Assembly (NCBI GenBank): GCA_944324725.1
Contig: CALUXJ010000003.1
Coordinates: 1 to 43,691, forward strand
Source: an uncultured Acholeplasmatales bacterium
Lineage (GTDB): Bacteria > Bacillota_I > Bacilli_A > Acholeplasmatales > Anaeroplasmataceae
Reading direction: 5' to 3'
DNA length: 43,691 nt
Below, one piece after another: positions 915 through 24,535 of this stretch. The notes under the pieces are model-generated. The model did no database searches and was not told the DNA's origin. It saw only the letters and a program-made list of their open reading frames with translations. Position numbers and translations under genes: made by a program. The stretch's first letter is position 1. Each line of letters begins with the position of its first letter.

Positions 915-2021
915 TTAACAAATACGTAATTCATCTTCGGCGTTGAAGAAATGACAGTTAGCTAAATCAATAGCTACCTTAATCTTTGAGCCTTCAGCAA
1001 CTTTATGCTTTGAACTGATGACACAAACAATATGTGCATTTTCAATATCAAAATGAACGTTACTTTCATGGCCTAACATTTCACAAACATCAACCATAAC
1101 TTCAACTGTTGAATCAGCAAATTCCTTTAAGCTAGCCTCATCTAGGTGAATTTCTTCAGGTCTAATGCCGACAATTACCTTTTTGCCAATTAAATCTGCT
1201 TCTTTGATTTTAGCAAACTTATCAGCTGGAATCTTAACTGCATGAGCGCCTGATTCGGTCTTAAATACACCATTTTCATCAACAATACCTGAAATGAAAT
1301 TCATTGGAGGAGTGCCAATAAAACCACCAACAAAGACATTAGCTGGATTATCATAAATTTCTTGTGGAGTACCTATTTGTTGAATATGACCATCTTTCAT
1401 AACTACAATTCTTGTTGCCATTGTCATTGCTTCAATTTGATCATGAGTTACATAAATAGATGTTGCCCCAATTCTTTTATGAATACGCGCAATCTCTGTC
1501 CGCATTTGACCTCTAAGCTTAGCATCTAGGTTAGATAATGGTTCATCATATAAGAATACTTTAGCATCACGCACAATTGCTCTACCTAAAGCAACTCTTT
1601 GTCTTTGACCACCTGATAAAGCTTTAGGTTTACGGTCTAAATAGGCTTCTAGACCTAAAGTATGAGCTACTTCGTTAATTCTTCTTTTGATCTCATCTTT
1701 TGGTACTTTTCTTAGTTTTAGACCAAAAGCCATGTTATCATACACTGTCATATGAGGGAATAATGCATATGATTGGAAAACCATCGCAATACCTCTATTT
1801 TTAGGTAAAACATCATTCATTAATTCCCCATCAATATAAAGTTCACCAGAAGAAATTTCTTCAAGACCAGCAATCATTCTAAGTGTGGTAGATTTACCAC
1901 AACCAGAAGGACCAACTAATACAATAAAATCCTTATCAGCAATATCTAGGTTAAAATCATATACAGCCTGATTGCCACCAGGATAGATTTTGTTTACATT
2001 TTTTAATACAACTGTTGCCAT
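915..2021 (-). CDS. msmX: ABC transporter ATP-binding protein, MsmX/UgpC type
   Basis: A 368-residue carbohydrate-importer ATPase. Seen: Walker A GPSGCGKST (37-45), Q-loop VFQSYALFPH (81-90), signature LSGGQ (135-139), Walker B VFLYDEP (155-161), H-loop VTHD, and a C-terminal TOBE regulatory region with GIRPEEIHL. Members of the MalK/MsmX/UgpC family energise CUT1 sugar importers, and one ATPase often serves several permease sets. No other sugar ATPase is in the window, so it is the natural partner of the two permeases at 17.4-19.3 kb and the lipoprotein at 8.5 kb. It is the last gene of the minus-strand run, 21 bp after the mutarotase, with a GGAG ribosome site upstream. Confidence 0.93.
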   Translation of the reverse strand: MATVVLKNVNKIYPGGNQAVYDFNLDIADKDFIVLVGPSGCGKSTTLRMIAGLEEISSGELYIDGELMNDVLPKNRGIAMVFQSYALFPHMTVYDNMAFGLKLRKVPKDEIKRRINEVAHTLGLEAYLDRKPKALSGGQRQRVALGRAIVRDAKVFLYDEPLSNLDAKLRGQMRTEIARIHKRIGATSIYVTHDQIEAMTMATRIVVMKDGHIQQIGTPQEIYDNPANVFVGGFIGTPPMNFISGIVDENGVFKTESGAHAVKIPADKFAKIKEADLIGKKVIVGIRPEEIHLDEASLKEFADSTVEVMVDVCEMLGHESNVHFDIENAHIVCVISSKHKVAEGSKIKVAIDLANCHFFNAEDELRIC

Positions 2022-2042: not shown

Positions 2043-2894
2043 CTATTTTGTTTTATAAGTAATATTATAATAGGTTTTAAAGATAGATTTGTTTTTTAAT
2101 TTAACTAAATTAGACTTATTAACCAAGCTATGATCAGCCCCCAATTGATCGGGAAGACCATTCCATGCTTCTATACATAAGAACTCCGGATTTCCTTCTG
2201 GCACTTTTTGCCAAAAGGCCGTATATGGCATATTATGTCTAATACAAATACTACAACGATCTCCTTCTAAATCTATTATTTGCATATCTTTATAGCATAA
2301 AGTCCGCGGTTTAACAAGCTTTTTTGAAATAGCACTAAATGCCATCTTACCCCATTTTTCTAAATGAGTACCTTGAACATATGCTTGATCAAAATCGATA
2401 GATTCATAATCTTTTTCTAAAACTTTAAAGGTATACTCACCCAAAAGTTTTTTTAATCCCTCATAAGCAAAACCTGGATGTATTCCAAGGGCAAAATACA
2501 TAGGGTATGCGTTTAGATTTTCAACTTTTAACTTAATTGCTAAAGTCATATTAACTATTTTATACTCTATACTTAAATTAAATTTAAAGGGATAGATCTT
2601 CAATGTCTCATTATTATGAGCTAGTGTTAATATAACTTTAGTTTTGGTATGCTTTTTAACTAGAAATTTAGTTCGTTTAGCAAAACCATGAATTAAGTTA
2701 TGATATATTTGGCCATCATATTCAAAATAGTTATCCAGTAAAGAACCAATATTAGGAAATAAAATTGGACTTTGTTCTGGCCATAAACTACTTCTTTGCC
2801 ATAATACATTTGTATTATAATACTTTATGTATTCCAATTCAGCACCAAAGGGATTGATGCCCACTCTTAAATTTTTACTGCTAATTTCTATCAT
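2043..2894 (-). CDS. Aldose 1-epimerase family protein (LacX/YeaD-like mutarotase)
   Basis: A 283-residue beta-sandwich protein of the galactose mutarotase-like superfamily. Seen: IHGFAKR with His69, ALGIHPGF with His139 and, near residue 243, IEAWNGLPD, which carries the catalytic-type glutamate. These match the two histidines and the glutamate used to interconvert sugar anomers. No signal peptide, so it is cytoplasmic. Its ATG overlaps the rpiR stop as ATGA, so the two are translationally coupled. In this locus it may equilibrate amino sugars or uronates released inside the cell; the actual sugar is not known. LacX-type proteins are often of unproven substrate. Confidence 0.85.
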   Translation of the reverse strand: MIEISSKNLRVGINPFGAELEYIKYYNTNVLWQRSSLWPEQSPILFPNIGSLLDNYFEYDGQIYHNLIHGFAKRTKFLVKKHTKTKVILTLAHNNETLKIYPFKFNLSIEYKIVNMTLAIKLKVENLNAYPMYFALGIHPGFAYEGLKKLLGEYTFKVLEKDYESIDFDQAYVQGTHLEKWGKMAFSAISKKLVKPRTLCYKDMQIIDLEGDRCSICIRHNMPYTAFWQKVPEGNPEFLCIEAWNGLPDQLGADHSLVNKSNLVKLKNKSIFKTYYNITYKTK

Positions 2895-3709
2895 TTAATC
2901 ACCGAATTAGTAACCAATTGATTATATATATGGGTTTTCTCTACATCCTTCAATGCACAATTAGTAATTAAAACATCACTTATGAATAATTGTGATAGTT
3001 TTGAACTAAAAAATCCACCATTAATATCATTTTCAAAGCCCTTAGTTTGTAGGAAAACATCTGCGTATTGAGCAAGGGTTGAATTAGTATAATTAGAAAC
3101 AACAATGACTTTAATACTCTTTTCCTTGCATTGCTTAGCAATTGTAATGATTTCCGCTGTTTCTCCTGAAAAAGAGTACAATAGAGCACAACTAGCTTCA
3201 TCCATTACTGCCGTATACATATAGCTAAAATGGCTATCACTTAGTACAATTGCTGGTAAACCTATTCTTAGACATTTGCTAAACATATCTAAAGCTGTAC
3301 TATGACTAATACCCATACCAGCAATAAAGACTTGTTTGGAGGACAATAAAATTTGACTTGCTTTTTCAATCGAATTCATGTCAACATTTTCCTTTGTCTT
3401 ATTAATAACCTCCAGCATGTTTTCACAAATATTATCAATAAATGGACTATCTTTAGCAATATGTAAATTTTCGTAATTCTTATAAACAGCCATTCTAAAA
3501 TTAGTAAAGTTAGCATAGCCCAATTTTTTAAAATATCTAACTACCGTAGCCTCACCAACATCAACCTTTTGCGCAATACTACTTAAAGATTCATACACAA
3601 CTTGTAATGGATTTTCTAAAACGAATTGATGAACCTTTTGTTCACTTTTGGAAAAAGTGATATTATTAGGATTTAAAACACTACTAAATTTTTTGATATC
3701 AAATGCCAT
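2891..3709 (-). CDS. RpiR/MurR family transcriptional regulator
   Basis: A 272-residue regulator. The N-terminal ~77 residues form an HTH_6 domain (SLSSIAQKVDVGEATVVRYFKKLGY, quoted here only as its key positions around 41-66), and the rest (about 110-255) is a SIS sugar-phosphate isomerase-type domain with a GxGxS-like motif (AGMGISHS) and SFSGET. RpiR proteins sense phosphosugars such as GlcNAc-6-P or MurNAc-6-P, so this is a plausible controller of the surrounding locus. It is not known from sequence whether it activates or represses. The gene sits 69 bp after the beta-helix gene and overlaps the mutarotase by 4 bp. Its ribosome site is weak. A palindrome at 3758-3770 lies just upstream. 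Confidence 0.9.
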   Translation of the reverse strand: MAFDIKKFSSVLNPNNITFSKSEQKVHQFVLENPLQVVYESLSSIAQKVDVGEATVVRYFKKLGYANFTNFRMAVYKNYENLHIAKDSPFIDNICENMLEVINKTKENVDMNSIEKASQILLSSKQVFIAGMGISHSTALDMFSKCLRIGLPAIVLSDSHFSYMYTAVMDEASCALLYSFSGETAEIITIAKQCKEKSIKVIVVSNYTNSTLAQYADVFLQTKGFENDINGGFFSSKLSQLFISDVLITNCALKDVEKTHIYNQLVTNSVIK

Positions 3710-3778: not shown

Positions 3779-6370
3779 TTAATTATTGATGACATTTATA
3801 GTAATGTTTTTAATTAATCCTGTTACCTTATCTCTAATTGTTATACCATGCAAACCAACCTTTAAACCAACTATAGAATAACTATTTTCATCTATTTTAA
3901 GGGCACTATTATCATAATAAAATTCCAAACTTGTGTCAATTAAACTCAAGCTTTCAGCTAAAATTTTGCTTTCTTCACCCAATTTAATATTAAAATAAGA
4001 ATCTATATTTTGTAACACTTTAGACTTTACATTTATTTGATAATTAATAATTAAATTATTTGTTTTATCAAATATTGTTAAATAGTGCGTTCCAGCCATC
4101 AAAGCTGTTACTTGGTTACTACCATTAAAGGTTAATTTTGTATCATCATACTCTACATCTAAATTACTTGACAAACTAATTGTACTTGGTAAATTAAATG
4201 AAGTACCTTCCATTATTTCTTTTTCTAAATTAACAACATTTTTAGCATTAACGGTAACTTTAACATATTTCACTATACCACTATAGTTTTCTGTTACCAT
4301 GATACTATGAATCCCTGGTTTTAAAGCCCGCACATTTTGATTATTATCAATAGTTATATAACCTGATAAAAAATTGAAAGAAAAATCAACACGATAATCT
4401 TGAGGATAATTGATTACAAGTTTTTGTGAGTCACCCAAATTTATTGACATATCACTAATTTGATAGTCATCAATTATGCCATCATCAACAACAATATTCA
4501 AATTGATAATGAAACCACCACAATTCATAACTACAACTTTATTGCCTATATTTTTAGGCTTTAAAATTATTGTCTCATTTGTTTTAACAATCTCAAAATC
4601 AGCTGTATTAATATCAACCGAATCAAACAAACTTAAATCTAAATAGTCACTTATATCAATTTCATTATATATTTTAGTTGTTATATTATAATTTGATTGA
4701 TAACCAAATTTTGATATTGCATATCTATAAGTTGGGATATTTAAGGTATAGTCCTCAACTACAATTTCAGTAGTTTCTTTATTACTTGTTATAACTTCAT
4801 AATTAGTATCTAAATTTAGTTCTTGATTGTTGTAAGCTGTATTATTGATATAGATATCATCACTAGCACTAACAATTTTCCGATTAACAATTTTTATATC
4901 AGCTTTTGGCAAACTATATAAATTCGCTAAATCAATACTAGCATATCTTTCTAAGTCAGACCAAACAAATTTATCTGTACTAACTGATGTACCATAATCA
5001 TTATTTATGGATAAAGCACTACCTAAATAATTTGTATTATTCAAAATGTTTAAATTTTGTAGTGTTTTATCACCAGCTTTTCTAACTATTCTAACCGTCT
5101 CGTTTGGTAAATTAAGTGAAATAACTTTGTTATTTTCAATGGTTAAATTAGAAATATTAGCATTAGTCATATAGTTTTGTACATATATTAAAAATGATTG
5201 AGTCGGATACTTTGCTAGGTTTCCCGGTTGTAAAGTTACCGGATTATTCGTATAGTCTTGATTGACAAAAACATTTTCAGCCGCATATGTATTGATAAGA
5301 TTACTATTTTTAGAATGGTCTTGAACATAGAAAAGTAAAATTGAATCTTCAAAAATATTTCGATATACTAAGGCATTGCTTCCATTTCGAATCTTGAGAC
5401 CACCATCTTGATTCTTATTAGAACCTTTGAAATAATTACCCACTACCTGTAAATTATCATATTCCTTAGCATAAATGATGTGATCTCTATTATAACCTGA
5501 GGTTTGACCACTACCATTTTCATAATAAGCTTCCTCAATATCCTTATTAATAGAAAAATGATTTCCTTCAATTAATACATTACTATCACCGCTAATAACA
5601 TTGATACAAGTCATAAAATAGCCTTGATTGCTATCACTATTATAACTTTCCAACTTTAGCACTTTATCTTTTAATGATTTAACTTTTTCACTAACAATAC
5701 TATCATCAATATCCTCAATAAGACCAAAATAATTGTCTTTTACTGTAAAATCATATGTATTGTATAAACCAATACCTCGCCCTTTACTAGTTGAATCTCG
5801 TAGAAATAGATTAGATGAAATATTACCATTTGTCTTACTTTTAAGAATATAATAACCTGTTAGTTCTCCACCATTTTTATTACTTGAATCTGGTTTTAAA
5901 CCTGAATCAATATCAATATCAACCTTTTTGGCATTGAGAAAAATATTTTCTTCAATTGACCAATTAATAGAGTTCGCATTTTGGGAATATATAGTAACAT
6001 TATCAAAAATGATATTTTTTATCGTAATGTTTTTAGTATCTTCGTCATCAAAAATATTGATTTGATAATCACTATCTGAATTTTGCCCAGAAAAGATAGT
6101 CATTTCATCACCAATAATTGACACATCAGAAACTAAAGTAACATCACTGCCTAAAATATATGTGCCACTATTAAAAAATGCATCCTTATTTGCTGCTTTA
6201 CATCTAGCAAGAAAAATTTTAATTTCTCGACTATTGTCCTTACCAGGAGCTAATGTGATATAGTCCTTTGCCTCTAAATAGGTTGACTCTGTTGCATTAA
6301 CACTAACAAATAAAACTCTAAAGGAGATAATTAGTAATAAAGCACAAAACAACCACTTTAATTTCTTCAT
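3779..6370 (-). CDS. Secreted right-handed beta-helix protein, distant PL6-like lyase, with C-terminal Big2-type repeats
   Basis: The 863-residue product has a signal peptide (KK then a hydrophobic core, cleavage near residue 26). About residues 40-480 are short parallel beta-helix coils rich in N-x-F and I-x-N ladders. In the stretch around 298-340, a YAKEYDN segment with Lys302 and a KIRNGS segment with Arg328 resemble the Lys/Arg pair of chondroitinase B (PL6); the neighbouring histidine of that enzyme is Asn here. Residues about 640-863 hold three bacterial Ig-like (Big2) modules. There is no membrane helix at the C-terminus, unlike its surface neighbours, so it is either free or held by partners. 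It overlaps the PL8 stop by one base (TAATG), so it is cotranscribed. Lyase activity is inference; a non-catalytic beta-helix binder is possible. Confidence 0.75.
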   Translation of the reverse strand: MKKLKWLFCALLLIISFRVLFVSVNATESTYLEAKDYITLAPGKDNSREIKIFLARCKAANKDAFFNSGTYILGSDVTLVSDVSIIGDEMTIFSGQNSDSDYQINIFDDEDTKNITIKNIIFDNVTIYSQNANSINWSIEENIFLNAKKVDIDIDSGLKPDSSNKNGGELTGYYILKSKTNGNISSNLFLRDSTSKGRGIGLYNTYDFTVKDNYFGLIEDIDDSIVSEKVKSLKDKVLKLESYNSDSNQGYFMTCINVISGDSNVLIEGNHFSINKDIEEAYYENGSGQTSGYNRDHIIYAKEYDNLQVVGNYFKGSNKNQDGGLKIRNGSNALVYRNIFEDSILLFYVQDHSKNSNLINTYAAENVFVNQDYTNNPVTLQPGNLAKYPTQSFLIYVQNYMTNANISNLTIENNKVISLNLPNETVRIVRKAGDKTLQNLNILNNTNYLGSALSINNDYGTSVSTDKFVWSDLERYASIDLANLYSLPKADIKIVNRKIVSASDDIYINNTAYNNQELNLDTNYEVITSNKETTEIVVEDYTLNIPTYRYAISKFGYQSNYNITTKIYNEIDISDYLDLSLFDSVDINTADFEIVKTNETIILKPKNIGNKVVVMNCGGFIINLNIVVDDGIIDDYQISDMSINLGDSQKLVINYPQDYRVDFSFNFLSGYITIDNNQNVRALKPGIHSIMVTENYSGIVKYVKVTVNAKNVVNLEKEIMEGTSFNLPSTISLSSNLDVEYDDTKLTFNGSNQVTALMAGTHYLTIFDKTNNLIINYQINVKSKVLQNIDSYFNIKLGEESKILAESLSLIDTSLEFYYDNSALKIDENSYSIVGLKVGLHGITIRDKVTGLIKNITINVINN

Positions 6371-8463
6371 TATTTTCTCCTAAACACTAATAAATGTTCT
6401 AACTCATCATTAATAACAAACTCATCTCCCACATGATCTCCCGTACATTTTATTAATTGATAATCTAATATTTCTAAGCTAAATTTAGCTTTTTTTCTTT
6501 GCCCTGTAGCTACTTTAATACTTATATAGTCGCCATCATACTTCATAATTAAACTTATTTTACCTTTTAAGCTAACTATTTCATAATTTAGGATTTTATT
6601 AGTAAAGGAATTAATCATTAAATAGTTAGAATATTGTAAAATATGATAATCATCATTATTAATCAGCGTATAATCATCATCAACATTTTTGTAGCTAGGA
6701 TAAATTTGATAACTATATTCCTTCACATTTGGAATAATCAAACGCTTACCAACACAATTTATGATAGTTTTATCTTCATTAACATTTAAATCAGCGTAGG
6801 ACCTAGTTTCGCTATAGTCAACAAGCTTAGCATTATCAACATTTTTGATAAGTATCTCATTGGCGGAAGCTAAACTGCCATTTAAAGTCAAATTTGAATC
6901 ATCATAAATAGTATGATGTAACACTTCTTTACTATTAATTTTGCTACCAACAAAGATAATTGAATTTGCTAAAACAAAACGAGAAAAATTGCCTGAATAA
7001 TAGGTTTCATTATGAAAATAAACATTTAATAAATTATCAAAAACAACCCCAATACTTCGGTTATTTTTAAATACTTCATTTGGCTTTTCAACAACTAAAG
7101 CATTAGTTGAACCACATCTATAATATGGATTGGTCTTTACTTCTTCCAATTTATTTTTGTTATTATAATATAAATCATATGTTCCATTTGCTTGATAAAA
7201 TCCCAACAAATTTTCACCATTTATTGCCTCATAATTAGCAATATAGGCTGAATTATTATTAAAAGTAATTGCAAACTCATTATTACGATACAAGTATCTA
7301 TCCATATAATTAAAGGCTGTCACTTTTGTACTATATTGATTGTTTTCCAAATCATCTAAAAGTTTACTTAAATACTTACTACCACTGATTTCTTCTAAAA
7401 CTTTAATTGCTTTTAATATAATTTGATAACTATAATTTGCGTTTTGCTTCTTTCGCGAAATAGCTCGACCACGGGTTGCTTCTAAAGCATAATGATTATA
7501 TAAAAATGGTTCATAGCTCATCTTGATATAACTAACTAAAACCTTAGAATAGGCACTAATATCAAAATCGATTAACTTAAATATTTTTAATAGTTTTGTT
7601 AATGAATTTAACAATACTTCACCATAAGAAGCATTATAGGGTATATTTTTATGCTGAATAAAACTACCATCTGGATAAAAACCATCACCTGTTCTTGTTA
7701 CCTTAAGTGTTCTTTTAATAAGTTTAAACAAGTACGTAAGTGTAGGTTTATCCTCTAGCATAATAGCTTTTAGTAAAGCGATATAAATATTATCAGCTAA
7801 ATTAGCATAAGTGGCAATTTCATATTTTTGATTTGGCCAATTACGTCGGTAAAAAATGTATAAAGCATTAGGAGCATAAAAACTTGTAATATTAAGATAA
7901 TTAAATATCTTATCTTTAGGCAAATCATTATAAAGAATAAATAATATTTCATGCAAAACTCTTGGAATGCCGATTTCATATGGCCACCAATTACCAGAAT
8001 AATTACTTTGACCTTGATAATAATAATTGATAATAAAATCTAGGGCACTTACTATCTCATTTAATAGTTTTGAATCTTTGTTATCATTATAATGCAAAAC
8101 CATATTGAAGACTCTTTTAATTGCCTTATAGGCATTTTCACCTGTATTATCTTTTAAATCTAAATATAATAATCCTGTTGAATCAAAGGGCATAATCGGT
8201 TCTTTCGTTCCAACTATCATATATTTTTTGAATATGTTTGCATAAACATTAGAGTATTTTTTTATAATAATTTTAACCCGATCATCTTCAGTAATAGTAA
8301 ATGAGTGGTAAGAACCTAAATAGATAGCATAACAAGCTTTATTACTTAATGTTAATTTATTATAATTACCATCAATTGCATAATCTATTTGAAATAAATC
8401 ACTATCTTTTAATAATCTAATAAAACAAATGTAATTATTAGCCGTATTATTTAAATATTCCAT
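6370..8463 (-). CDS. PL8-family polysaccharide lyase (hyaluronate/chondroitin lyase type), no signal peptide
   Basis: A 697-residue protein. About residues 110-350 match the alpha/alpha toroid of PL8: NWW..EIG.PR (158-168), Asn221 in TYANLADN, GDGFYPDGS (259-267), His271 and Tyr280 with the exact +9 spacing of the hyaluronate lyase His/Tyr pair, and RGRAISR (331-337). The C-terminal half should be the beta-sandwich domains. PL8 enzymes cleave hyaluronan or chondroitin by beta-elimination and leave an unsaturated uronate, the substrate of the GH88 encoded upstream. Unlike almost all relatives, it has no signal peptide. The ATG follows a GGGAGGTAG site and an in-frame TAA lies immediately before it, so an upstream extension is excluded. 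The first ~105 residues match nothing I recognise. Cytoplasmic action on imported oligosaccharides is inferred. Confidence 0.88.
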   Translation of the reverse strand: MEYLNNTANNYICFIRLLKDSDLFQIDYAIDGNYNKLTLSNKACYAIYLGSYHSFTITEDDRVKIIIKKYSNVYANIFKKYMIVGTKEPIMPFDSTGLLYLDLKDNTGENAYKAIKRVFNMVLHYNDNKDSKLLNEIVSALDFIINYYYQGQSNYSGNWWPYEIGIPRVLHEILFILYNDLPKDKIFNYLNITSFYAPNALYIFYRRNWPNQKYEIATYANLADNIYIALLKAIMLEDKPTLTYLFKLIKRTLKVTRTGDGFYPDGSFIQHKNIPYNASYGEVLLNSLTKLLKIFKLIDFDISAYSKVLVSYIKMSYEPFLYNHYALEATRGRAISRKKQNANYSYQIILKAIKVLEEISGSKYLSKLLDDLENNQYSTKVTAFNYMDRYLYRNNEFAITFNNNSAYIANYEAINGENLLGFYQANGTYDLYYNNKNKLEEVKTNPYYRCGSTNALVVEKPNEVFKNNRSIGVVFDNLLNVYFHNETYYSGNFSRFVLANSIIFVGSKINSKEVLHHTIYDDSNLTLNGSLASANEILIKNVDNAKLVDYSETRSYADLNVNEDKTIINCVGKRLIIPNVKEYSYQIYPSYKNVDDDYTLINNDDYHILQYSNYLMINSFTNKILNYEIVSLKGKISLIMKYDGDYISIKVATGQRKKAKFSLEILDYQLIKCTGDHVGDEFVINDELEHLLVFRRK

Positions 8464-8495
8464 TTAGGTTCTACCTCCCACAAACTAACTAAAGA

Positions 8496-10097
8496 CTAAT
8501 TATGAGTTTCATCATATCTAGCTTGTAAAATAGTTTTAACGCTATTAGCACCATCACTAGCTAAAGCACTTTGGAATGCTTGCCATGATGCATCAGAAAT
8601 TGGGTTACCACCTTTTAACCATTCAGCAACATACTTGTCAAATGTTTCTTTTAATTTACTCTTATTAGTATTAACTGTATTATAGTTATCTTTTGTTAAT
8701 TTAGCATTTGGATAAATTAAATCATTGTAACCAGCATTTAGATATGGTGCATAAGCTTCCATTGCATCAGCTGCTTCAGTTGATAACCAAGCCTCTTCAT
8801 AATCAAAGTTTTGAACACCTGCTACTTGTAATTGAGCACCAATATTATATAGGTTAGCTAAGGCTGTATTATTATCATTGACAATCGCATCTGTATAAAC
8901 ACGCTTGTCGCCTTCCCAATTCCAATCAGTACCTTCAACACCGAAGTTAGCTAATTCTTGACCTTCTTCTGAGAAGAAGAAATCAATCCACTTTAACAAC
9001 TTAATTTTATCTTCATCACTTAAATCATTCTTAATAGCTGTTACGTTACCAATTAATTTACGTCTAGTTGGTTCAACACGTACTGGTTGACCATTTTCCA
9101 TTTTTTCATTGCCTTGTTCATCAACTTGAATAGGAGGTAAGATACATAATAACTCAAAGTCTTCTACTAAGTTACTTGCATATACATCACTATTAAATGT
9201 GTATGTTGTACCAATCCAGTCATGTGTAGAACCGCCTGAATCTTGAGCAAAATAAGTAACACGTTTATCTTCATTGTTTGTATTTGTAATGATTTCTGAA
9301 TCAATGATTCCTAATTTACGCCATTCAATAATATGATCCATAGCTGTTCTAAATGTATCTTCTTGAAGACCATATTGAACTTGACCATTATCATCTACAT
9401 AGAAATCAGCATTAGAACCCCAAAGAGCAGCTAATTCTTGAATTGCAAAATCACTATCACGATCAAAGTATGGATATAAAGTAGTTACATTACTAGATAC
9501 TAATAGATTCTTATTGTCTTTGAAAGCTTTTAAAATTGCTTCGTATTCATCAACATTAATGTTATTTAAACTTTCTTCAGTTGCTTCTACACCACTAGGT
9601 AACTTACCAGCATCTGCTAGTTTTTTAACCCAATCAAAACGAATGAAATAACCTTTAGCAGTATCACCTTCAGTATAGAAAGGTATACCATAAATATTAC
9701 CATCTGAAGCTGTTGCCCATGCTTTAGCAGTTGGGTTTTCATTGAAATAATTATATAAATTTGGTGCATTTTCGGCATTTATTAAATCACTAAGATTTGC
9801 AAAAATTCCTTCATTTAATGCTGTTGCTTCAATAGTATCTTGGTCATTTACAACTATATCAGCATTTTTACCATCTAGAGCATAAATTGAGTCGTAGTTA
9901 CTATCATAACGTTGTAACACACCTTCTAATTCAATTCCAGCGTAGTCATTAGCTCTTTGGAAAACAGGCATTGTATCACTATATACTGTATTCTCTTGGT
10001 ATAAGAAGATAGTATATGTATCACTGCTACCACCACAAGCTGAAAGGGTTAAAACCCCAACAGATGCAGCTAAACCTGTTAATAATTTCTTAATCAT
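8496..10097 (-). CDS. Extracellular solute-binding lipoprotein of a CUT1 importer (LipO/YtcQ-like)
   Basis: A 533-residue family 1 solute-binding protein. The signal peptide ends in a lipobox (LSAC, Cys21), so it is lipid-anchored outside the membrane. The size, over 500 residues, and the two-lobe sequence with many aromatic residues are typical of the LipO/YtcQ/AlgQ group that works with LplB/LplC permeases; members of this group bind alginate in Sphingomonas and unsaturated GAG disaccharides in Streptobacillus. The gene starts 8 bp inside the end of the heparinase-like gene, with its GGAG site also inside it. The transporter partners are the permeases at 17.4-19.3 kb and MsmX at 0.9-2.0 kb. 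The likely ligand is an unsaturated GAG oligosaccharide. Confidence 0.92.
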   Translation of the reverse strand: MIKKLLTGLAASVGVLTLSACGGSSDTYTIFLYQENTVYSDTMPVFQRANDYAGIELEGVLQRYDSNYDSIYALDGKNADIVVNDQDTIEATALNEGIFANLSDLINAENAPNLYNYFNENPTAKAWATASDGNIYGIPFYTEGDTAKGYFIRFDWVKKLADAGKLPSGVEATEESLNNINVDEYEAILKAFKDNKNLLVSSNVTTLYPYFDRDSDFAIQELAALWGSNADFYVDDNGQVQYGLQEDTFRTAMDHIIEWRKLGIIDSEIITNTNNEDKRVTYFAQDSGGSTHDWIGTTYTFNSDVYASNLVEDFELLCILPPIQVDEQGNEKMENGQPVRVEPTRRKLIGNVTAIKNDLSDEDKIKLLKWIDFFFSEEGQELANFGVEGTDWNWEGDKRVYTDAIVNDNNTALANLYNIGAQLQVAGVQNFDYEEAWLSTEAADAMEAYAPYLNAGYNDLIYPNAKLTKDNYNTVNTNKSKLKETFDKYVAEWLKGGNPISDASWQAFQSALASDGANSVKTILQARYDETHN

Positions 10098-13000
10098 TGT
10101 TTTTCTTTCTCCTTTTTATTACTAAAAATACTGTAACACCTGCAGCAACTAAAACAACAGCGCCACAAATGCAACCAACTATAATCCGCATGTTATTATT
10201 ATTAGTTGGATTAGAAATTCTTGTACCATTATCTAAGAATGTCACCTCGGCAACATTAACTGTATCATCATTATTGTTACCATAGAAAGTTATCTTTACA
10301 TATTTTGCATCAAAGTTACCTAATGAATATACTTCATTACCAATATTATTAAAGCTTTGACCAGCAAAATAAGCATTTTTATAGTTTTCTCCATCTTCAG
10401 AGTAAGCTATATCAAAATAATATTTATTATTGATACCACCATTAAATCTAATTAATACGTCTGTAATGGTTTGAACGTTTGCAAATTCAAAAGTTATTTC
10501 TTGAACACCAGTATCCGTTAAACCTGAATTTTGACCATCAATTAAGTTAGCGGCATCAGCATGCCCAGTAACAGATTGAACTGCTAAAGTTTGATATGAA
10601 GCATATTCAGAAGCTTGAGTCATAACATCAACTACAAATTTATAGTTGTATGTTCTACTTTCACCAGTTTCTTTATCCGTTAATGTAACTGTACTAATAT
10701 TATCAAATAAATTAGACTTATTAATAGTTAAATCATACTTACTTTCATCATATGTTACCTTAAAATCAGGAACAGATTTAGAACCTGCAGCTAATTTAAC
10801 TAAATAATTATATTGATATTTATTAAATTCATATAAATAACCTAAACCAAAGTCAGTAGCAGTATCTAAATCAAAGGAAATATCATCTGCTGTAATCTCT
10901 GGTAAATATGAATCATTTTCATCTAAAGCCCAATTTGCTAGAGGAACTACATTGTAATCAGTAAATTCCTTAACTTCTTCCATAGTTGGAATGAATACTA
11001 CTGCAAGTGTACCACTAACAATATCATCTAATTCGATTACAAGTTTTGTTACACCACGGTTGTCTAAATTTTCAAATAGACCTGTTGAACCTGGTAATGG
11101 TGTATTACCACTCATTTTTGTAAATGTTCCTAAATCACTGATAATTAATGCATAGATACTCTTATTATTTAAAGTTAATCTAGCTAATTTATCACTTAAA
11201 ATATCAACTCTAGCTTCAGTATGAGCACTCCAATATAAGGTAGATTCACCACGTAAATTGAATTCATCTTGAACCATTACATATTGACGATTATTAAATA
11301 ATTTTAAACCACGTTGAACAGATAATGCTTCAGCTTTATAAACTCTAGACAAATCAATAATACTTAAACCACTAGAGGCATTAGATTCAAATCTCGTAAT
11401 TGGAGCTGTTTCATGTGGATCTTGAGTTAATACAGGTTCTTGATCTGGATTAATTACTAAAGTGTTTTGACCTTGAGCACCCTTCTTATAATATGTCCAT
11501 CTTTGATATTCATAATCCCAATATCCATCAGGAACATTTGTATTATAAGTTTCATTTGAGTAGTTACCAATAAATCTTTCACCTAATGCGTATAATTCAA
11601 ACGTACCACTATCTAGATTCTTATGTGAGAAGTTTGCTGTATGATCATCTACACCTTTTAAACCAGTGAATACAGCCATTTCATCACCAAATTCAGATCT
11701 AAATGTAGCAAGTTCATGGGCTTCTAATAAGAAATCCTTGTTTTCCATATTATGTAAATCAACTTTGTCAAATAAACCTGGTTGATACCATAATAAATTT
11801 TGAATATTATATTGTTCATTTTCATGAGCTAATAATGGTAATACTGCAGCATTGATATTATCTTCATCAATTCTAGTATACCATAATAATGCTGGTTGAT
11901 TATTTGAATAATCTGATTCAGCATAATAGAAAGATTGGTAATTTGGAGTTGAAGTATAAAGAGGATAATTAATATAGTTCTTAATACCTTCGATATCCAT
12001 TAAACCAAAGCAATTAATATTACCTTGTTCATCAGCACCATATAGATTATATAATGTTGCAATTAAGTTAACCATATTACGGTGTGCATAAATTGAATAA
12101 GATGGCCCTTCTGGGAAACCACCAGATTCAGAATAGTGAACTAAACCAATTTGTAAATATCTAAATGCTGTGGCAACAATATCAGCGGCAACTTCTCGAA
12201 CATTAATAGTTGTAGTTTGACCATTAACTGTAACTTCTAAATCGCCTTCATAATCCATAACAGCTAATGCAGCAACTGCTAAGTCACCACAAACTAATAG
12301 GTTATGGTTATTACCGTGTAACAATACGTTAACATTATTCAAGTTTTCAAAATAATAGAAACCCTCTTCGTAAAGAACTTGTAAAACTAATTCTTTTTGA
12401 GCATCTGTTAACTTATCTTTAATATAGTTATAAGTAAAGCCTACACTATAAGTAACCATCGCAGCATCTAAGAAACCATTGGTATCATGACCCCAATCTT
12501 GGTGTTCATCCTCACTACCTGTTGATTCTTTTGTCTTTACAACTTCATATAATTGATCCCAACAAGCATCAAGATACTTTTCATTTTGGGTTATTTTCCA
12601 TAAGATAGCTAATTGTTCCATTGGTGTACGCGCATTAGCTGGAACACCTTCTGGTACAAAGCTTGCATATTGGGCTTCATAATATCTAACCCAAGTTGTA
12701 ATATATGGATCTCCATTTTCATAGCCAACCCTAACTTCTTCTAACCACTCATCTTTAGATAATACGTATGTACCACTAAAGTCCGTACTATCAAAAGCAA
12801 AATCTTCCATACTAGGTAAAACATAAACTGTATTAGTAAATGTTACTTCTTTATCATCCTTTGTTATTTTGATATCGAAATGATCATAGCCAATAAAGTC
12901 TTTTGCTGGTGTATATTCATAAATAATAGCATGAACAAACTTACCTTGAGATTCGTAGTAACGATCTTCTACCTCTTGAGCTTTACCATCATAAAGAATA

Positions 13001-14691
13001 TTAACTGTACCACCATTTTCGGTAGTTATTGTTAAACTGCCATCAACACCAGTACCAACTACTTCTTTATACATATCAGCCTTAGCTTTACGATAGGCCT
13101 GTTGTTCAGCACTATTACTACTGATTTCACCATTATTAATTATTGGATATAATACTTCAATATCATAGGATTGAACTTGAAGATAGCCACCACCATATAA
13201 ACCGGCAGCTTCACCACCTACATTTGTGTTTATATGATGATCATAATTGTATCGTGGATTTGCTTGCCATGCTAGCTCGCCATTCTTTTCGACACTATGC
13301 CAAAAATCAACAATACCAATTTCATCACTAACTGGCAAAATAGTAATTTCTACTGGAACAATTACATAACCTTTACCAGAATTATCACTTACTAATACTT
13401 CAAATCTATCCTTATTATCTCCCGTTGTGTAATAATCAGCAGCTGGAGCATACATAATCTTATTATCTTCCGTTATATAATAATCACCATGTAAAGGATT
13501 TGCATAATAATATACAGTAAAATCTTCACTTATATCAGAAGAGACAACTAGAGCTGTTTGACTATCTTCCTCAACTTGAATAGCTTGACCGTTATTAACA
13601 ACAGCTGTGATACCATCAACAATACCAACAATAACTAGTACTTCACGTGTATAACCATATAACTTATCTTTTACAGTAATCGTAGCAACACCATCAGAAA
13701 CAGCTGTAATTTCACCAGTATTAGATACTGTGGCAACACTTTCATTATCTGATTCATATTGATATTCAAAGCTTACAACAGATTCAGGTACTGTTACACA
13801 ATTAATTTGAGCTTTATCACCAGCAATCATGCTTTCAACGCTCTTTTCAACCATAAACGTTGTGTAATCTGTTGTTATAACTCGGTAAACATGAAGATCA
13901 TCAAACCAAACTTCACCAATGTTATTAGCAAAATATAACTCTAATCTTAAATTTTCTCCCTCTGCAAGTCTAAATATTGGAGATTCAAAAACACCATCAA
14001 AGCTACCTGTTAATCTTTCAGTAGTAGTTTGACCATATTGATTATTTAAATTTAATCTAATAAAGCAGTTATTATTAGAAACATTTTCACCACGCATTCT
14101 AACAGTAACATAATATTGACCAGCTGGAAGACCAGTTAAATCTTTATATAAGTTAGCGTAATACTGAGTTGGATGATTATAGTGAATCATATGGTTACCA
14201 CTATCATCGGTATATAGTTCTACTACTTGGTCACTACCAACTGCACCACCACCGGTATATAGTCTCCAACCATCAATAGTTTCGTTTGATTCTGTCCATC
14301 TAGCATCAGTTCTAATTGTATCAAAACCTGGATCTGGATTAAAATCTTCAAGTTCAACTGTAATAGTTACATCTGAGTATGAATTATCACTTTCTATAGA
14401 AACAACTGTTTCACCGGCTTTTAAAGCAATAAGTCTATTAAGAACTGAATTTACATACACAATTTCTTCATCTTCAACTGTGTATGTGAAAGACTGATTT
14501 CTATTGTATGGATAAAAATAGTCTGTAAAATCAATTTCTTCACCTACTGATAAAGTAAAGTTTGTTTCTTGAACTGCGGGGTTTTTATCAGCAGCCTTTA
14601 CTGTGCCTGAGTTGCCAAAAGTGGCAACTAGGCTTGAGCAAAGGATAAAGATTAAGATTAAGAGGAGACTAGAAAAAATTCTTTTCTTCAT
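10090..14691 (-). CDS. Giant membrane-anchored heparinase II/III-type polysaccharide lyase
   Basis: 1533 residues in this order: signal peptide (1-34), Big2-like module (40-115), beta-sandwich carbohydrate-binding-like module (about 120-271), Big2 (275-357), two cadherin-like Ig modules (about 360-455 and 500-626), a heparinase II/III-like lyase (about 640-1330), a discoidin/F5-8C (CBM32-like) domain (about 1370-1490), then one transmembrane helix and a KRRKKNND tail. In the lyase, GNNHNL (793-798), GGFPEGPSYSIY (857-868, tyrosines 865/868) and HKNLDSGTFELYALGE (from His1023) match the family's Asn/His, Tyr and His catalytic regions. Such enzymes cleave uronate-containing polymers by beta-elimination. 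It lies 13 bp after the surface binding protein gene and overlaps the lipoprotein gene by 8 bp. Exact PL family (12, 15, 21 or other) and substrate cannot be set by eye. No LPXTG motif. Confidence 0.85.
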   Translation of the reverse strand: MKKRIFSSLLLILIFILCSSLVATFGNSGTVKAADKNPAVQETNFTLSVGEEIDFTDYFYPYNRNQSFTYTVEDEEIVYVNSVLNRLIALKAGETVVSIESDNSYSDVTITVELEDFNPDPGFDTIRTDARWTESNETIDGWRLYTGGGAVGSDQVVELYTDDSGNHMIHYNHPTQYYANLYKDLTGLPAGQYYVTVRMRGENVSNNNCFIRLNLNNQYGQTTTERLTGSFDGVFESPIFRLAEGENLRLELYFANNIGEVWFDDLHVYRVITTDYTTFMVEKSVESMIAGDKAQINCVTVPESVVSFEYQYESDNESVATVSNTGEITAVSDGVATITVKDKLYGYTREVLVIVGIVDGITAVVNNGQAIQVEEDSQTALVVSSDISEDFTVYYYANPLHGDYYITEDNKIMYAPAADYYTTGDNKDRFEVLVSDNSGKGYVIVPVEITILPVSDEIGIVDFWHSVEKNGELAWQANPRYNYDHHINTNVGGEAAGLYGGGYLQVQSYDIEVLYPIINNGEISSNSAEQQAYRKAKADMYKEVVGTGVDGSLTITTENGGTVNILYDGKAQEVEDRYYESQGKFVHAIIYEYTPAKDFIGYDHFDIKITKDDKEVTFTNTVYVLPSMEDFAFDSTDFSGTYVLSKDEWLEEVRVGYENGDPYITTWVRYYEAQYASFVPEGVPANARTPMEQLAILWKITQNEKYLDACWDQLYEVVKTKESTGSEDEHQDWGHDTNGFLDAAMVTYSVGFTYNYIKDKLTDAQKELVLQVLYEEGFYYFENLNNVNVLLHGNNHNLLVCGDLAVAALAVMDYEGDLEVTVNGQTTTINVREVAADIVATAFRYLQIGLVHYSESGGFPEGPSYSIYAHRNMVNLIATLYNLYGADEQGNINCFGLMDIEGIKNYINYPLYTSTPNYQSFYYAESDYSNNQPALLWYTRIDEDNINAAVLPLLAHENEQYNIQNLLWYQPGLFDKVDLHNMENKDFLLEAHELATFRSEFGDEMAVFTGLKGVDDHTANFSHKNLDSGTFELYALGERFIGNYSNETYNTNVPDGYWDYEYQRWTYYKKGAQGQNTLVINPDQEPVLTQDPHETAPITRFESNASSGLSIIDLSRVYKAEALSVQRGLKLFNNRQYVMVQDEFNLRGESTLYWSAHTEARVDILSDKLARLTLNNKSIYALIISDLGTFTKMSGNTPLPGSTGLFENLDNRGVTKLVIELDDIVSGTLAVVFIPTMEEVKEFTDYNVVPLANWALDENDSYLPEITADDISFDLDTATDFGLGYLYEFNKYQYNYLVKLAAGSKSVPDFKVTYDESKYDLTINKSNLFDNISTVTLTDKETGESRTYNYKFVVDVMTQASEYASYQTLAVQSVTGHADAANLIDGQNSGLTDTGVQEITFEFANVQTITDVLIRFNGGINNKYYFDIAYSEDGENYKNAYFAGQSFNNIGNEVYSLGNFDAKYVKITFYGNNNDDTVNVAEVTFLDNGTRISNPTNNNNMRIIVGCICGAVVLVAAGVTVFLVIKRRKKNND

Positions 14692-14704: not shown

Positions 14705-17293
14705 TTATTTATTATTATGTTTTTTCTTTAATACAACAGCAACAACCACACCAGCAATAACTACTACTGCTACTACGGCACCTACTATACCCCAAATTAA
14801 ACCAGCATTTGAATTTGGTTCAGTTGGTTCTGGATCTGGTGTTGGATCTGGGTTTGGTGTAGGTTCTGGATCTGGGTCTGGTGTTGGATCTGGATCTGGT
14901 GTCGGATCTGGATCAACAACTTCACTAGAAACTGTAACATTAATTGTAAGAGATTGATTATCGCCCCATGTCAATGTTACTGTTGTAGAACCAGCCTTTA
15001 ATGGAACAATATATAACTTTCCATCAATAATTGAATCATTATCAACAAGAACAATTGTATCATCAGCAGCTGAAACTGTTATACCAGATGTATAGTCAAC
15101 AGGTGTTATAGTAATAGGCATACTATAACCTACATTATCTATATCAATTGTTACAGTTTCATATTCTTCTTCTACAGTTACATTAGTTACAGGTTTTTCA
15201 ATAGAAACTGTAACATTCAAATAATACTTTGTTCCATTAACTGTTGCGGTAATTAAAGCTGTACCATTGTTAACTGCTGTAATTAAACCTTCAGCACTAA
15301 CGGTTACAGCATCTTCATTATCTGATTCATAGCTTTCATTTACTACTGCAGTTGAAGGAATTGGTGAAATATTGATTTGAGATGTAGCACCTGCTGCATT
15401 TAATGTTAATGTTTGAGCATCAGCCGTATTAGTAGCAAATGTTTGTTCACCACTAGTTACAACCACACTCTTTAAAGCTGTTTCAGTATCAACCTTTACT
15501 AATTTAACGTGTGTAATATAGGAATCTAAACCTTCACTATGATTCCAAGAATTTAATTCTAGTTTTAAGCCCCATAAATTAGCATTATCCATATTAACAA
15601 CATCTGTTGTTTCAAATAATGACCAACCTTTTGATAAAGTACCATATGCGCATGTACAAGTTGCTTGGAAGTTAGCTGTATCATATGTAGGTGTAATTGT
15701 ACCATCTTTCACTTCTAATGCTGTAACACCTTGTGCCTTAATATCAATTTTCATTGATGAAGATATATTATCTGGATTATCAACTTTAGCAATAACAACT
15801 AACTTATAGTTAGCGTTGGCTTCTAATGCTTCTTTTGGAACAAAGTGATTAATTACAGAGTTACCAGTCTTGCTACCAGCACCAACAATTTTTAATGTTG
15901 AGCCATAAACTGAATCATCAATTACAGAAATTTGACCATAAGCCTTACCATTTGAAGCAAATGACATATAATAGTTGTCATTGGCATCTTGACGTAATAC
16001 ATTAGTTTCATCCCAAGTAGTACCAACGGCAGGTAATTGAGCTAAATAACCATCTTCAACTTTAATAGTTAAAGTCTTAGTAGCATTACCATCAGCAGAA
16101 TTTACAGTTAAAGTAGATGTGCCCTTAGCTGTAGCAGTAACAACACTACCATCTAAACTATAGATAGAGTTGGAATCACTTGCAGCGACATAATTTAATT
16201 CTTTATTAGTTGCAGCTACTGGACTAACTGTTAATAAGTCATCTAAATCATAGCTTTCACCAGGTACTAAAGAAATAGTGTCATTTGCAAAAATTTCACT
16301 CAATTTAATATCTTCTACTTTAGTTTCACCCTGAGCAGCACCAACATTTACTGTTGTTGTTACATCTTGAATAAGTGGATCAGCAAAGTCAAACGTAACT
16401 GTAGTTGAACCTTCAGCTAAACCTTCAAACTTACTAGATTCACTATTGTAAATCAACTTGCTTTCGTCTTCAATTACTGGAGTCCAATAACTAATTGAAG
16501 CGTCATAATCAGGATTTGTTCCTGTCAATGTTGGATTTATAGCTATAGACTGACCAACACTAGTATTATATGCTGATTCAACACTGGCAGTTGCGCCATT
16601 ATATTCACCCATATAGATATAGTCAATATCCCATTCTTCAGCTGGACGATTACCAGCTTTATCACTTTGAAGAGCTATATTAGATATTGTGCCTTTGTAG
16701 TCCTTACTCATATCAATTGCTGTAGAATATACTAATGAACCATTAATATAAGTATAAAGCATATCTCTGTTTGGATTTGAGGCATCAGTATTATCACCAT
16801 TATCTACTAAAACACTTTCTAATTCATACCAAGTATTAGCTGCAAAGGGTTGAGTAAAGTTTACATTGCCATTACCAACATTATAATAACCACTAGTAGT
16901 AAATGAGGCTAGAGCTATAGTGAATCCAGGATAGATTTGAATTGTTCTACGATAGGTATTATTCATTCTAAATCTTAATTTGATTACAGCATCTGTACCT
17001 GGCTTATTGTAAGTTGTTCCTTTTTGAATAACTATTTTATGAGCACTATCGACTGTACCATTAGCAGAAATTTGGTATTTTAAATATTCCCCTTCATCAT
17101 CTTTTACAGAAGACAAAGAAAGGTTAGAACCACTAATGCTACTTATATCATATACTCCTTGACCAACAGCTTCTGTCGTATAGTCAAAATCTTGCTTATA
17201 ACTAAAATTTTCTGCGGCTTTAACATTATTTGCAGCAACCATACCACCTAATGCTAAACCACCTAGGGCTAAGCCTAATAGTAACTTTTTCAT
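14705..17293 (-). CDS. Surface multidomain carbohydrate-binding protein with Big2 repeats and C-terminal membrane anchor
   Basis: 862 residues with no recognisable catalytic motif. Signal peptide (1-26), then a jelly-roll/LamG-like region (about 30-235), a Big2-like module (240-325), another (335-412), a second beta-sandwich resembling a CBM4/9-type binding module (about 415-620), two further Ig-like modules (635-785), a 30-residue Asp-Pro-Thr linker, one transmembrane helix (about 831-855) and a KKKHNNK tail. The linker and anchor suggest that the binding modules are held away from the membrane. It stands immediately upstream of the heparinase-like lyase gene and behind its own promoter, so a role in capturing the polymer is likely but inferred. 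It could equally be an adhesin for host matrix. Confidence 0.78.
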   Translation of the reverse strand: MKKLLLGLALGGLALGGMVAANNVKAAENFSYKQDFDYTTEAVGQGVYDISSISGSNLSLSSVKDDEGEYLKYQISANGTVDSAHKIVIQKGTTYNKPGTDAVIKLRFRMNNTYRRTIQIYPGFTIALASFTTSGYYNVGNGNVNFTQPFAANTWYELESVLVDNGDNTDASNPNRDMLYTYINGSLVYSTAIDMSKDYKGTISNIALQSDKAGNRPAEEWDIDYIYMGEYNGATASVESAYNTSVGQSIAINPTLTGTNPDYDASISYWTPVIEDESKLIYNSESSKFEGLAEGSTTVTFDFADPLIQDVTTTVNVGAAQGETKVEDIKLSEIFANDTISLVPGESYDLDDLLTVSPVAATNKELNYVAASDSNSIYSLDGSVVTATAKGTSTLTVNSADGNATKTLTIKVEDGYLAQLPAVGTTWDETNVLRQDANDNYYMSFASNGKAYGQISVIDDSVYGSTLKIVGAGSKTGNSVINHFVPKEALEANANYKLVVIAKVDNPDNISSSMKIDIKAQGVTALEVKDGTITPTYDTANFQATCTCAYGTLSKGWSLFETTDVVNMDNANLWGLKLELNSWNHSEGLDSYITHVKLVKVDTETALKSVVVTSGEQTFATNTADAQTLTLNAAGATSQINISPIPSTAVVNESYESDNEDAVTVSAEGLITAVNNGTALITATVNGTKYYLNVTVSIEKPVTNVTVEEEYETVTIDIDNVGYSMPITITPVDYTSGITVSAADDTIVLVDNDSIIDGKLYIVPLKAGSTTVTLTWGDNQSLTINVTVSSEVVDPDPTPDPDPTPDPDPEPTPNPDPTPDPEPTEPNSNAGLIWGIVGAVVAVVVIAGVVVAVVLKKKHNNK
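14817..14914. repeat. Short tandem repeat coding for a Pro-Asp-Thr linker
   Basis: Roughly 12-18 bp units encoding DPDPTP/DPEPTP are repeated through the 3' end of the surface binding protein gene. Such a repeat can expand or contract in-frame and change the length of the stalk. Confidence 0.8.
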
Positions 17294-17367: not shown

Positions 17368-18273
17368 TTATTTAACTGAACCAACCATAACACCTTTCTT
17401 AAAGTATTTTTGAATTAATGGGAATAAAATCAACATTGGAACAATTGCGATAACAATTAAGGCATATGCTGATACTAAACCCTCAAACGGATTAGATGTA
17501 TTTTCACCACTAGCTGATTGTAATATCTTCTTAACAATAACTTGTAATGGATATAAATCATCATCACGTAAAACTTGTTCAGCCCAGAAATAACCATTCC
17601 AACGATCAATTGCATAGAATAAACCGATTGTAGTTAATCCTGGAATACTTGAAGGTAAATAAATATTAAATAGAATTCTAAAGTGTGAAGCACCATCAAT
17701 TTGGGCACATTCATCAATATCTTGAGGAATAGCTTGGAAATAAGTCTTCATCAAGATGACATTGTATCCTGATACAGCAAATGGAATCAAAATACCTAGA
17801 TAGCTACGAATCATACCGAAGTTATCAATATTTACATAAGTAGCAATCATACCAGGCTTTAACCACATTGTCATTGCCACTAAAATTGTAAATATTTTAA
17901 CAACTTTTAAGCCACGACGTGATAATACATAGGCACAAGTCACTGTTATAAATAAGCTAATTGCTGTACCTGCAACGGTGATAAGTACCGTATTGCCATA
18001 AGCTTTCCAAATATCAACATTTTTCAAATGTTCCATTAAATATTCCATAGTAAAACCTTGAGGAATAATAATGAATTCATGATTATTAATAGCTTGTCTA
18101 AAACTTGTAGGTTCACTAACTGCTGATAAGAAAATGTATAAGATAGGGTAAATCATTACTAGTGATAACACTATCAATAGAGCATTATTAACATAATTGA
18201 ATATATTATCAGCTGTAAATTTCTTCTTAAGAGCACTCATTTTTCTTGCATTACTTTTTACTGTTGTTTCCAT
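17368..18273 (-). CDS. lplC: Carbohydrate ABC transporter permease, LplC/YtcP type
   Basis: 301 residues with about six membrane helices and the MalG-type EAA loop (DECAQIDGASHFRILFNIYL, about 200-220), which docks with the ATPase. Long relatives of this group use LipO-type lipoproteins. I prefer the ATG at 18273, which has AGGTGA five bases upstream; an ATG at 18288 in the same frame has almost no room for a ribosome site. It is the second permease of the pair and follows the first by 8 bp. With LplB, the lipoprotein and MsmX it should form the oligosaccharide importer of the locus. Confidence 0.9.
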   Translation of the reverse strand: METTVKSNARKMSALKKKFTADNIFNYVNNALLIVLSLVMIYPILYIFLSAVSEPTSFRQAINNHEFIIIPQGFTMEYLMEHLKNVDIWKAYGNTVLITVAGTAISLFITVTCAYVLSRRGLKVVKIFTILVAMTMWLKPGMIATYVNIDNFGMIRSYLGILIPFAVSGYNVILMKTYFQAIPQDIDECAQIDGASHFRILFNIYLPSSIPGLTTIGLFYAIDRWNGYFWAEQVLRDDDLYPLQVIVKKILQSASGENTSNPFEGLVSAYALIVIAIVPMLILFPLIQKYFKKGVMVGSVK

Positions 18274-18281
18274 ATGCTCAC

Positions 18282-19262
18282 CTACCATAATCCTGTATTA
18301 CTTAGTCGTTTAGCAATTTGGTTAACTACCGTTACTAAGACAACAGCTACTACCGCATCGAATAAACCAATTGTAGCTGCTAAGCCATAATTTGGTTGAC
18401 CATAAGCTGGAGCTAAAGATACATTATATACATATGTGCTTATAATTTCAGATACTCCCTTATTATATTCATTTTGTAATAGTAAAACTTTTTCATAACC
18501 CAAAGACATTAATTTACCAACTTTTAAAATTAATGTTGTGATAATTGTTGGTGCAATACCTGGAAGTGTTACATGCCAAATTTGCTTAAATTTACCTGCA
18601 CCTTCAATACCAGCAGCTTCATATAGTGAAGTATCAATTGCTGATAAAGCAGCTAGATAAATTAATGAGTTATACCCCATAGTTTGCCATAATTCCATCA
18701 ATGCATAAATCCAACGGAAAGCTGCTGGATTATCTAGTAGATTTTGTCTATCCATACCAAAGGCAACTAAGATATTAGTAATCATACCTGTATCTGCCTT
18801 TAAGAACTCAATTAACATATTACAAATAACAACTGCTGAAACGAAGAATGGTAAAAACGTAGTAGTTTGAGCTACACCCTTAACAACCTTACTTTTTGAT
18901 TCATAAATCATGATAGCCAAAATGATTGAACAAGGGAAACCAATTACTAATACCAAAACATTAAGTAATAATGTGTTTAATAATAATTCAACGAAGTTGT
19001 CAGCTGTAAAGAAAGTAATATAGTTTTGGAAGCCTACAAATTCACTACCAAATATACCCTTTGAGCCTTGATAATTTTCAAAAGACATTATTAGGTTAAT
19101 ACCAAATGGTAAAAATACAAATAGTAATAACCAAATAAAAGCTGGTAAAAATAATACATAGATTTGCCACGTATCGCGAAAATACTTTTTCCATTTGCCA
19201 GGTCTTTTAATTTGTGCAACTTCAGATGATTTCTTCATATTAAGTGTTGCTGTATCTTGCAC
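18282..19262 (-). CDS. lplB: Carbohydrate ABC transporter permease, LplB/UgpA type
   Basis: 326 residues, about six membrane helices, with the MalF-type EAA loop EAAGIEGAGKFKQIWHVTLP in the C-terminal third. It is the partner permease of the LplC-type protein. The reading frame is open to 19295 (a TTG), but the only good ribosome site (GGAGGGG, 19271-19277) lies downstream of that TTG, so I place the start at the GTG at 19262; an ATG at 19238 lacks a site. The GGAGGGG overlaps the last codons of the GH88 gene, so the two are coupled. The start is less certain than the function. Confidence 0.88.
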   Translation of the reverse strand: MQDTATLNMKKSSEVAQIKRPGKWKKYFRDTWQIYVLFLPAFIWLLLFVFLPFGINLIMSFENYQGSKGIFGSEFVGFQNYITFFTADNFVELLLNTLLLNVLVLVIGFPCSIILAIMIYESKSKVVKGVAQTTTFLPFFVSAVVICNMLIEFLKADTGMITNILVAFGMDRQNLLDNPAAFRWIYALMELWQTMGYNSLIYLAALSAIDTSLYEAAGIEGAGKFKQIWHVTLPGIAPTIITTLILKVGKLMSLGYEKVLLLQNEYNKGVSEIISTYVYNVSLAPAYGQPNYGLAATIGLFDAVVAVVLVTVVNQIAKRLSNTGLW

Positions 19263-19276
19263 TTTTAAAACCCCTC

Positions 19277-24485: not shown

Positions 24486-24535
24486 ATCTTTCACCTCATA
24501 TAAATTTTATTTGAAACCAATTTTGATTACACTAA

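Follow-up and report, generated by a model that had tools for sequence, protein, structure and literature searches.

In published models of glycosaminoglycan degradation, the polysaccharide lyases of family 8 (PL8) are extracellular and disaccharides are imported (PMC5430744, PMC8222515, PMC11669647). The accepted schemes for hyaluronan and chondroitin place the lyases outside the cell and let only unsaturated disaccharides enter, by a PTS or an ABC transporter. PL8 subfamilies are still termed secreted in a 2026 paper (PMC13260240), and the PL8 of S. pneumoniae is displayed at the cell surface (PMC4175358).

Several described systems resemble the locus analysed here. The Smon0115-0128 cluster of Streptobacillus moniliformis likewise encodes PL8, a heparinase II/III-like lyase, an AlgQ-type solute-binding protein (SBP), two permeases, an ATPase, GH88 and KduI/KduD/KdgK (PMC5430744). 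It differs in coming from a Gram-negative organism, in having PL8s reported to be extracellular, with disaccharides as the imported form (PMC5430744), and in including a sulfatase, a type of enzyme not found here. The AlgQ1/AlgQ2-AlgM1M2SS system of Sphingomonas sp. A1 shares the AlgQ-type SBP, ABC import of uronate chains and intracellular lyases (PMC9314435, PMC8286568), but it imports the polymer without extracellular degradation, uses other lyase families and acts on alginate. Two signal-less PL8 xanthan lyases have already been described (PMC12827396), so the idea of a cytoplasmic PL8 is not new for the family. These enzymes, Pt_XanPL8a from Paenibacillus taichungensis I5 and the PL8 of Ruminococcaceae UCG-13, are encoded with a depolymerase, ABC transporter genes and GH88, and are proposed to act on imported oligosaccharides (PMC12827396, PMC10881899). 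They attack xanthan side chains, not glycosaminoglycan, and their partner is a GH9 or GH5 enzyme instead of the PL35 enzyme found here. PL35 enzymes degrade hyaluronan, chondroitin and heparan sulfate (PMC12088678, PMC11262172). No description of a signal-less glycosaminoglycan PL8 was found in the open-licence literature.

The window analysed here, 43,691 bases long, is a whole contig (C3) of a 1.4-Mb MAG that is 89.5% complete. We consider it likely that it encodes a cytoplasmic PL8 oligosaccharide lyase within an operon by which this Anaeroplasmataceae/Acholeplasmatales bacterium takes up glycosaminoglycan, most likely hyaluronan. The features of the locus are listed in Table 1.

Table 1. 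Features of the PL8 locus and its surroundings in the window.
Feature	Position	Strand	Remarks
MsmX/UgpC-type ABC ATPase	915..2021	minus
Aldose-epimerase-like protein	2043..2894	minus	assigned by reading the sequence; conserved in operon
RpiR-family regulator	2891..3709	minus
Right-handed beta-helix protein	3779..6370	minus	863 aa; secreted, signal peptide; without Pfam family or PDB sequence match
PL8 lyase	6370..8463	minus	697 aa; ATG start; without signal peptide; ORF and Pfam
All-beta N-terminal domain of PL8	8239..8463	minus	residues 1 to about 75
Gap between SBP stop and PL8 ATG	8464..8495	minus	32 nt; GGAGG and in-frame TAA
Solute-binding lipoprotein (SBP)	8496..10097	minus	533 aa; ...LTLSACGGS; homologous to AlgQ/Smon0123
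PL35-type lyase	10090..14691	minus	1533 aa; secreted, C-terminally membrane-anchored; Big_2, Hepar_II_III_C, F5/8
Ig-like protein	14705..17293	minus	862 aa; secreted, membrane-anchored; conserved in operon
LplC-type ABC permease	17368..18288	minus
LplB-type ABC permease	18282..19295	minus
GH88 unsaturated glucuronyl hydrolase	19277..20503	minus	without signal; closest to streptococcal glycosaminoglycan enzyme, 4e-97
F5/8-type C domain protein	20518..21306		262 aa; domain below cut-off; signal-less; adjoins GH88
NagA, GlcNAc-6-P deacetylase	22610..23749	minus
NagB, glucosamine-6-P deaminase	23757..24494	minus
ROK sugar kinase	24889..25779	minus
GH28-like protein	32117..33649		assigned by reading; without signal; outside main operon

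The PL8 protein and its N-terminus

The 697-residue protein belongs by its sequence to polysaccharide lyase family 8 and is predicted to act by beta-elimination. Pfam detects the Lyase_8_N toroid domain (8.8e-53) and the Lyase_8 super-sandwich domain (7.8e-11, above cut-off, with a partial match and a weak score). Lyase_8_C gave no Pfam match at 0.001; C-terminal beta strands are present in the structural model, and the C-terminal part is short. NCBIfam matches nothing but a model for hyaluronate lyase, with a score far under the cut-off. The top PDB sequence match, pneumococcal hyaluronate lyase (8e-33), is aligned across the catalytic motifs. Asn221 (YANLAD), His271 (FIQHKN) and Tyr280 (NASYGEV) are in place, and the arginine motif 331-RGRAISR-337 is intact. 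The original prediction had named this reading frame and these residues, and our analysis bears it out, adding only the strand (minus), which it had not given.

The AlphaFold model has a complete PL8 fold (pLDDT 84, pTM 0.86), with an all-beta N-terminal domain followed by an alpha/alpha toroid and a beta super-sandwich. Its nearest structure is Arthrobacter chondroitin AC lyase (TM 0.74 over about 700 columns); a structural match to an exolytic PL8 is insufficient to establish exo action. The pneumococcal (1ojm) and Arthrobacter (1rwa) enzymes share the fold and the catalytic residues and differ in their N-terminal part. In the window protein the N-terminal domain is modelled with a pLDDT of about 90 and lies outside the Pfam PL8 match; it is conserved across the 13 related proteins described below.

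The short C-terminal part, the missing Lyase_8_C match and the weak Lyase_8 score might be taken to mean an inactive or relic enzyme, retained through operon linkage. We find this scarcely credible, as the catalytic residues are invariant down to 25% identity and none of the 13 genes contains a stop. Across the 13 aligned proteins the Asn, His, Tyr and RGRAISR positions do not vary, except for A/S and I/V/S exchanges within the arginine motif.

The sequence ...TGTGGGAGGTAGAACCTAA runs up to the ATG of the PL8 gene and contains a GGAGG ribosome site and then an in-frame TAA that abuts the ATG; the letters preceding the ATG, GGGAGGTAGAACCTAA, hold both. As the TAA abuts the ATG and the SBP gene lies only 32 nt upstream, no signal peptide can be encoded there; the original prediction had argued this from the ribosome site and the TAA. 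The N-terminus itself agrees. Signal calls were based on a hydropathy test and inspection of the N-termini: the best 12-residue Kyte-Doolittle mean of the PL8 N-terminus is 0.85, with no hydrophobic core and no export signal, whereas the same measure gives 2.07 in the SBP and 2.74 in the beta-helix protein. Chance or assembly error is unlikely, since the same arrangement occurs in 12 other assemblies. The missing signal suggests that the protein resides in the cytoplasm. It is not proof of this, because a signal-less xanthan PL8 has been found in a culture supernatant (PMC12827396).

Signal-less PL8s in relatives and across the family

Among 55 genomes of the family, 12 (window included) carry an orthologue of the PL8 gene, and one more was found elsewhere in the order. 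The relatives of the same genus and the same family are uncultured Acholeplasmatales/Anaeroplasmataceae MAGs. A signal-less PL8 occupies the same slot in 12 relatives from three genera and two families. At all 13 loci the gene order PL35 - SBP - PL8 - beta-helix is preserved, and the SBP and beta-helix genes on either side of PL8 encode signals which PL8 lacks. The distance from the SBP stop to PL8 varies from 6 to 32 nt. On the other side, in the window, the PL8 stop codon and the beta-helix start codon share bases (TAATG). The relatives' proteins are 25 to 60% identical to the window protein, and none of the 13 has an internal stop. With such divergence among the carriers, the signal-less PL8 is not a recent accident. 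The operon tail (RpiR - epimerase - NagB - NagA - ROK - MsmX) is present in genus g5 wherever the sequence stretch covers it.

Orthologues of the SBP (E < 1e-150) occur in 13 family genomes, 12 of which have PL8; the remaining 42 genomes have neither. One genome (G042) was rejected as a case of SBP without PL8, as its contig ends inside the SBP gene. A scan of viral contigs with the PL8 query returned no relative.

For comparison we used 80 named PL8 loci, of which five fall within the signal-less clade and 75 outside. As the original prediction had supposed, PL8s are generally exported: a hydrophobic N-terminal signal is present at 71 of the 75 outside loci, absent at two (Candidatus Epulonipiscium L068, Lachnospiraceae L065) and not judgeable at two. 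In a tree of 101 PL8s, the 13 signal-less proteins form a single clade on a long stem (support 99). The tree was computed quickly with FastTree and has some long branches, so its finer placements are unsure. On starred branches the signal label switches two or more times, and parsimony counts four changes; loci L073, L114, L119 and L028, with cut or ambiguous starts, were omitted from these counts.

The original prediction had also asked how many homologues lack a signal and have LplBC transporters as neighbours. The signals are indeed missing from all 13 clade members. LplB- and LplC-like genes, for their part, lie within 10 kb of 29 of the 71 exported PL8s, and their proximity is therefore not diagnostic of oligosaccharide import.

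The PL8 could instead leave the cell non-classically, by lysis, in vesicles or by non-classical secretion, and act outside, with only disaccharides imported. Most PL8s do act outside, and signal-less Pt_XanPL8a was detected in a supernatant (PMC12827396). We nevertheless judge this improbable: the signal is absent from 13 of 13 PL8s while the flanking operon genes retain theirs, the operon already encodes a secreted lyase, and the clade members are about 700 residues long, compared with open frames of at least 800 residues for many exported PL8s.

Some PL8s outside the clade deserve mention. That of Candidatus Epulonipiscium (L068:7693-9990) is a complete three-domain protein without a signal, in the order GH88 - AraC - SBP - LplB - LplC - PL8. 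On this sequence evidence it is a second, independent case of a presumably cytoplasmic PL8. The Lachnospiraceae PL8 without signal (L065:9725-11854) has 709 residues and no recognised transporter genes within 10 kb. A signal-less PL8-like protein of 628 residues (L148:7535-9421, genome G177) lies between Rex-like and GroEL genes, distant from carbohydrate genes, and has a very long branch; L050 (G232) encodes the same type. At L040 and L136-L139 the PL8 frames are interrupted by TGA, probably read as Trp, and most have lipoprotein-like signals. The PL8 of Helicobacter ailurogastricus (L082) has a signal peptide and, in the tree, is placed beside a Fusobacterium PL8.

Importer, partner enzymes and substrate

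The operon contains the LplB/LplC-type permeases of the original prediction, together with an SBP. Among solved structures, AlgQ2 (1e-52), AlgQ1 and the Streptobacillus glycosaminoglycan SBP Smon0123 (9e-46) are nearest to this SBP. The contacts of Smon0123 to unsaturated GlcUA are kept: Trp294, Thr297 (for Ser), Leu413, Gln429, Tyr433 and Glu434, the position of Arg322 being uncertain in the alignment. Most of the GalNAc contacts, a feature of Smon0123 and not of AlgQ, are lost (His36 to Gln, Tyr146 to Thr, Arg393 to Tyr, Lys210 missing), Arg204 being kept. The SBP is thus expected to recognise the unsaturated chain end while differing in its second subsite. We also tried the SBP sequence as a discriminator of disaccharide and oligosaccharide binding. 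This failed: the protein scores nearly equally against AlgQ2 and Smon0123, a reported disaccharide binder, and its sequence does not fix the import size.

The PL35-type lyase aligns with a solved PL35 enzyme (8khv, 4.6e-25); its Asn794/Asn795, Tyr865 and His1023 correspond to PL35 catalytic residues, and the Asn, Tyr, His triad (N795, Y865, H1023) is present. Elsewhere in the genome, contig C19 carries KduI, a KduD-like SDR and a KdgK-like kinase together. Family searches of the MAG found neither a sulfatase nor GH20; at 89.5% completeness such absences are weak evidence. With no sulfatase found, and with GH88, NagA, NagB and the ROK kinase present, hyaluronan is favoured as the substrate, though not proven.

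Another substrate, be it chondroitin, heparosan, a bacterial or plant acidic polysaccharide or alginate-like chains taken up by the AlgQ-like system, holds a minority chance in our view. It would change the substrate only and leaves the cytoplasmic location as proposed. AlgQ2 is the nearest solved SBP, PL8 and PL35 substrates are broad (xanthan and alginate PL8s exist), a GH28-like gene is nearby, and the fold of the beta-helix protein is similar to those of RbmB and AlgE4. Against this stand the closeness of GH88 to a streptococcal glycosaminoglycan enzyme and the genes for NagA, NagB and the ROK kinase, which point to GlcNAc. An alginate-type substrate is further disfavoured by the PL35 enzyme, which has Asn794 and Asn795 and not the His tied to alginate activity in GAGase III.

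A proposed division of the pathway

A disaccharide contains no bond for a PL8 lyase to eliminate. If the PL8 is cytoplasmic, it follows that chains of at least four sugars are imported. The original prediction spoke of long oligosaccharides. That more than disaccharides enter is a logical consequence, but the word long is unsupported, as tetrasaccharides would suffice.

The gene content suggests the following sequence of steps. Outside the cell, the anchored PL35-type lyase, perhaps together with the beta-helix protein, would cut the polymer. The SBP would bind these fragments by their unsaturated-uronate end, and oligosaccharides of four sugars or more would enter through the LplB/LplC/MsmX-type ABC transporter. 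Cytoplasmic PL8 would convert them by beta-elimination into unsaturated disaccharides, from which GH88 would strip the unsaturated uronate. The ROK kinase, NagA and NagB would then process the amino sugar, and KduI/KduD/KdgK the uronate. Cutting outside, import of short chains and a last cut inside is the economical reading of the operon, and it suggests that this gut relative of Acholeplasma imports short pieces of glycosaminoglycan and completes their cleavage within the cell. We had also considered that PL8 is needed for want of other oligosaccharide-degrading enzymes. This was dropped: the genome encodes a GH2 enzyme that looks like a beta-glucuronidase, as well as GH3 enzymes that carry a NagZ-like motif, and imported oligosaccharides may therefore have routes other than PL8.

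The original prediction had drawn a parallel to alginate uptake in Sphingomonas. The AlgQ-type SBP upholds it in part, and this SBP and an intracellular lyase would also agree with import of the intact polymer, or of very long chains, and depolymerization inside. Such import is very improbable here: strain A1 uses a cell-surface pit and does no extracellular degradation (PMC8286568), whereas this operon encodes secreted lyases, among them the PL35-type enzyme with its triad intact. More tentatively, as a reasonable possibility, we propose a two-stage glycosaminoglycan system in Anaeroplasmataceae whose last lyase step is cytoplasmic. An AlgQ-like importer would take chains of at least four sugars, and PL35 and an unclassified secreted beta-helix lyase or epimerase would prepare them outside, sparing the loss of disaccharides to neighbours.

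A conserved cytoplasmic glycosaminoglycan lyase, if true, would imply that certain gut bacteria take in larger fragments and so leak less to their surroundings; labelling all PL8s as secreted or virulence-type enzymes would then be unsafe. The compact, well-defined operon offers a direct test bed for the size of imported glycosaminoglycans.

Two further proteins of the locus may be mentioned. The 262-residue protein with an F5/8-type C domain is perhaps a cytoplasmic carbohydrate-binding protein. The nearest folds to the beta-helix protein are the polysaccharide lyase RbmB and the mannuronan C5-epimerase AlgE4, at modest TM, and it possibly represents a new polysaccharide lyase or epimerase family. 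DGG-x-K-x-RNG and DH motifs are invariant in this protein and its orthologues (L014-L025).
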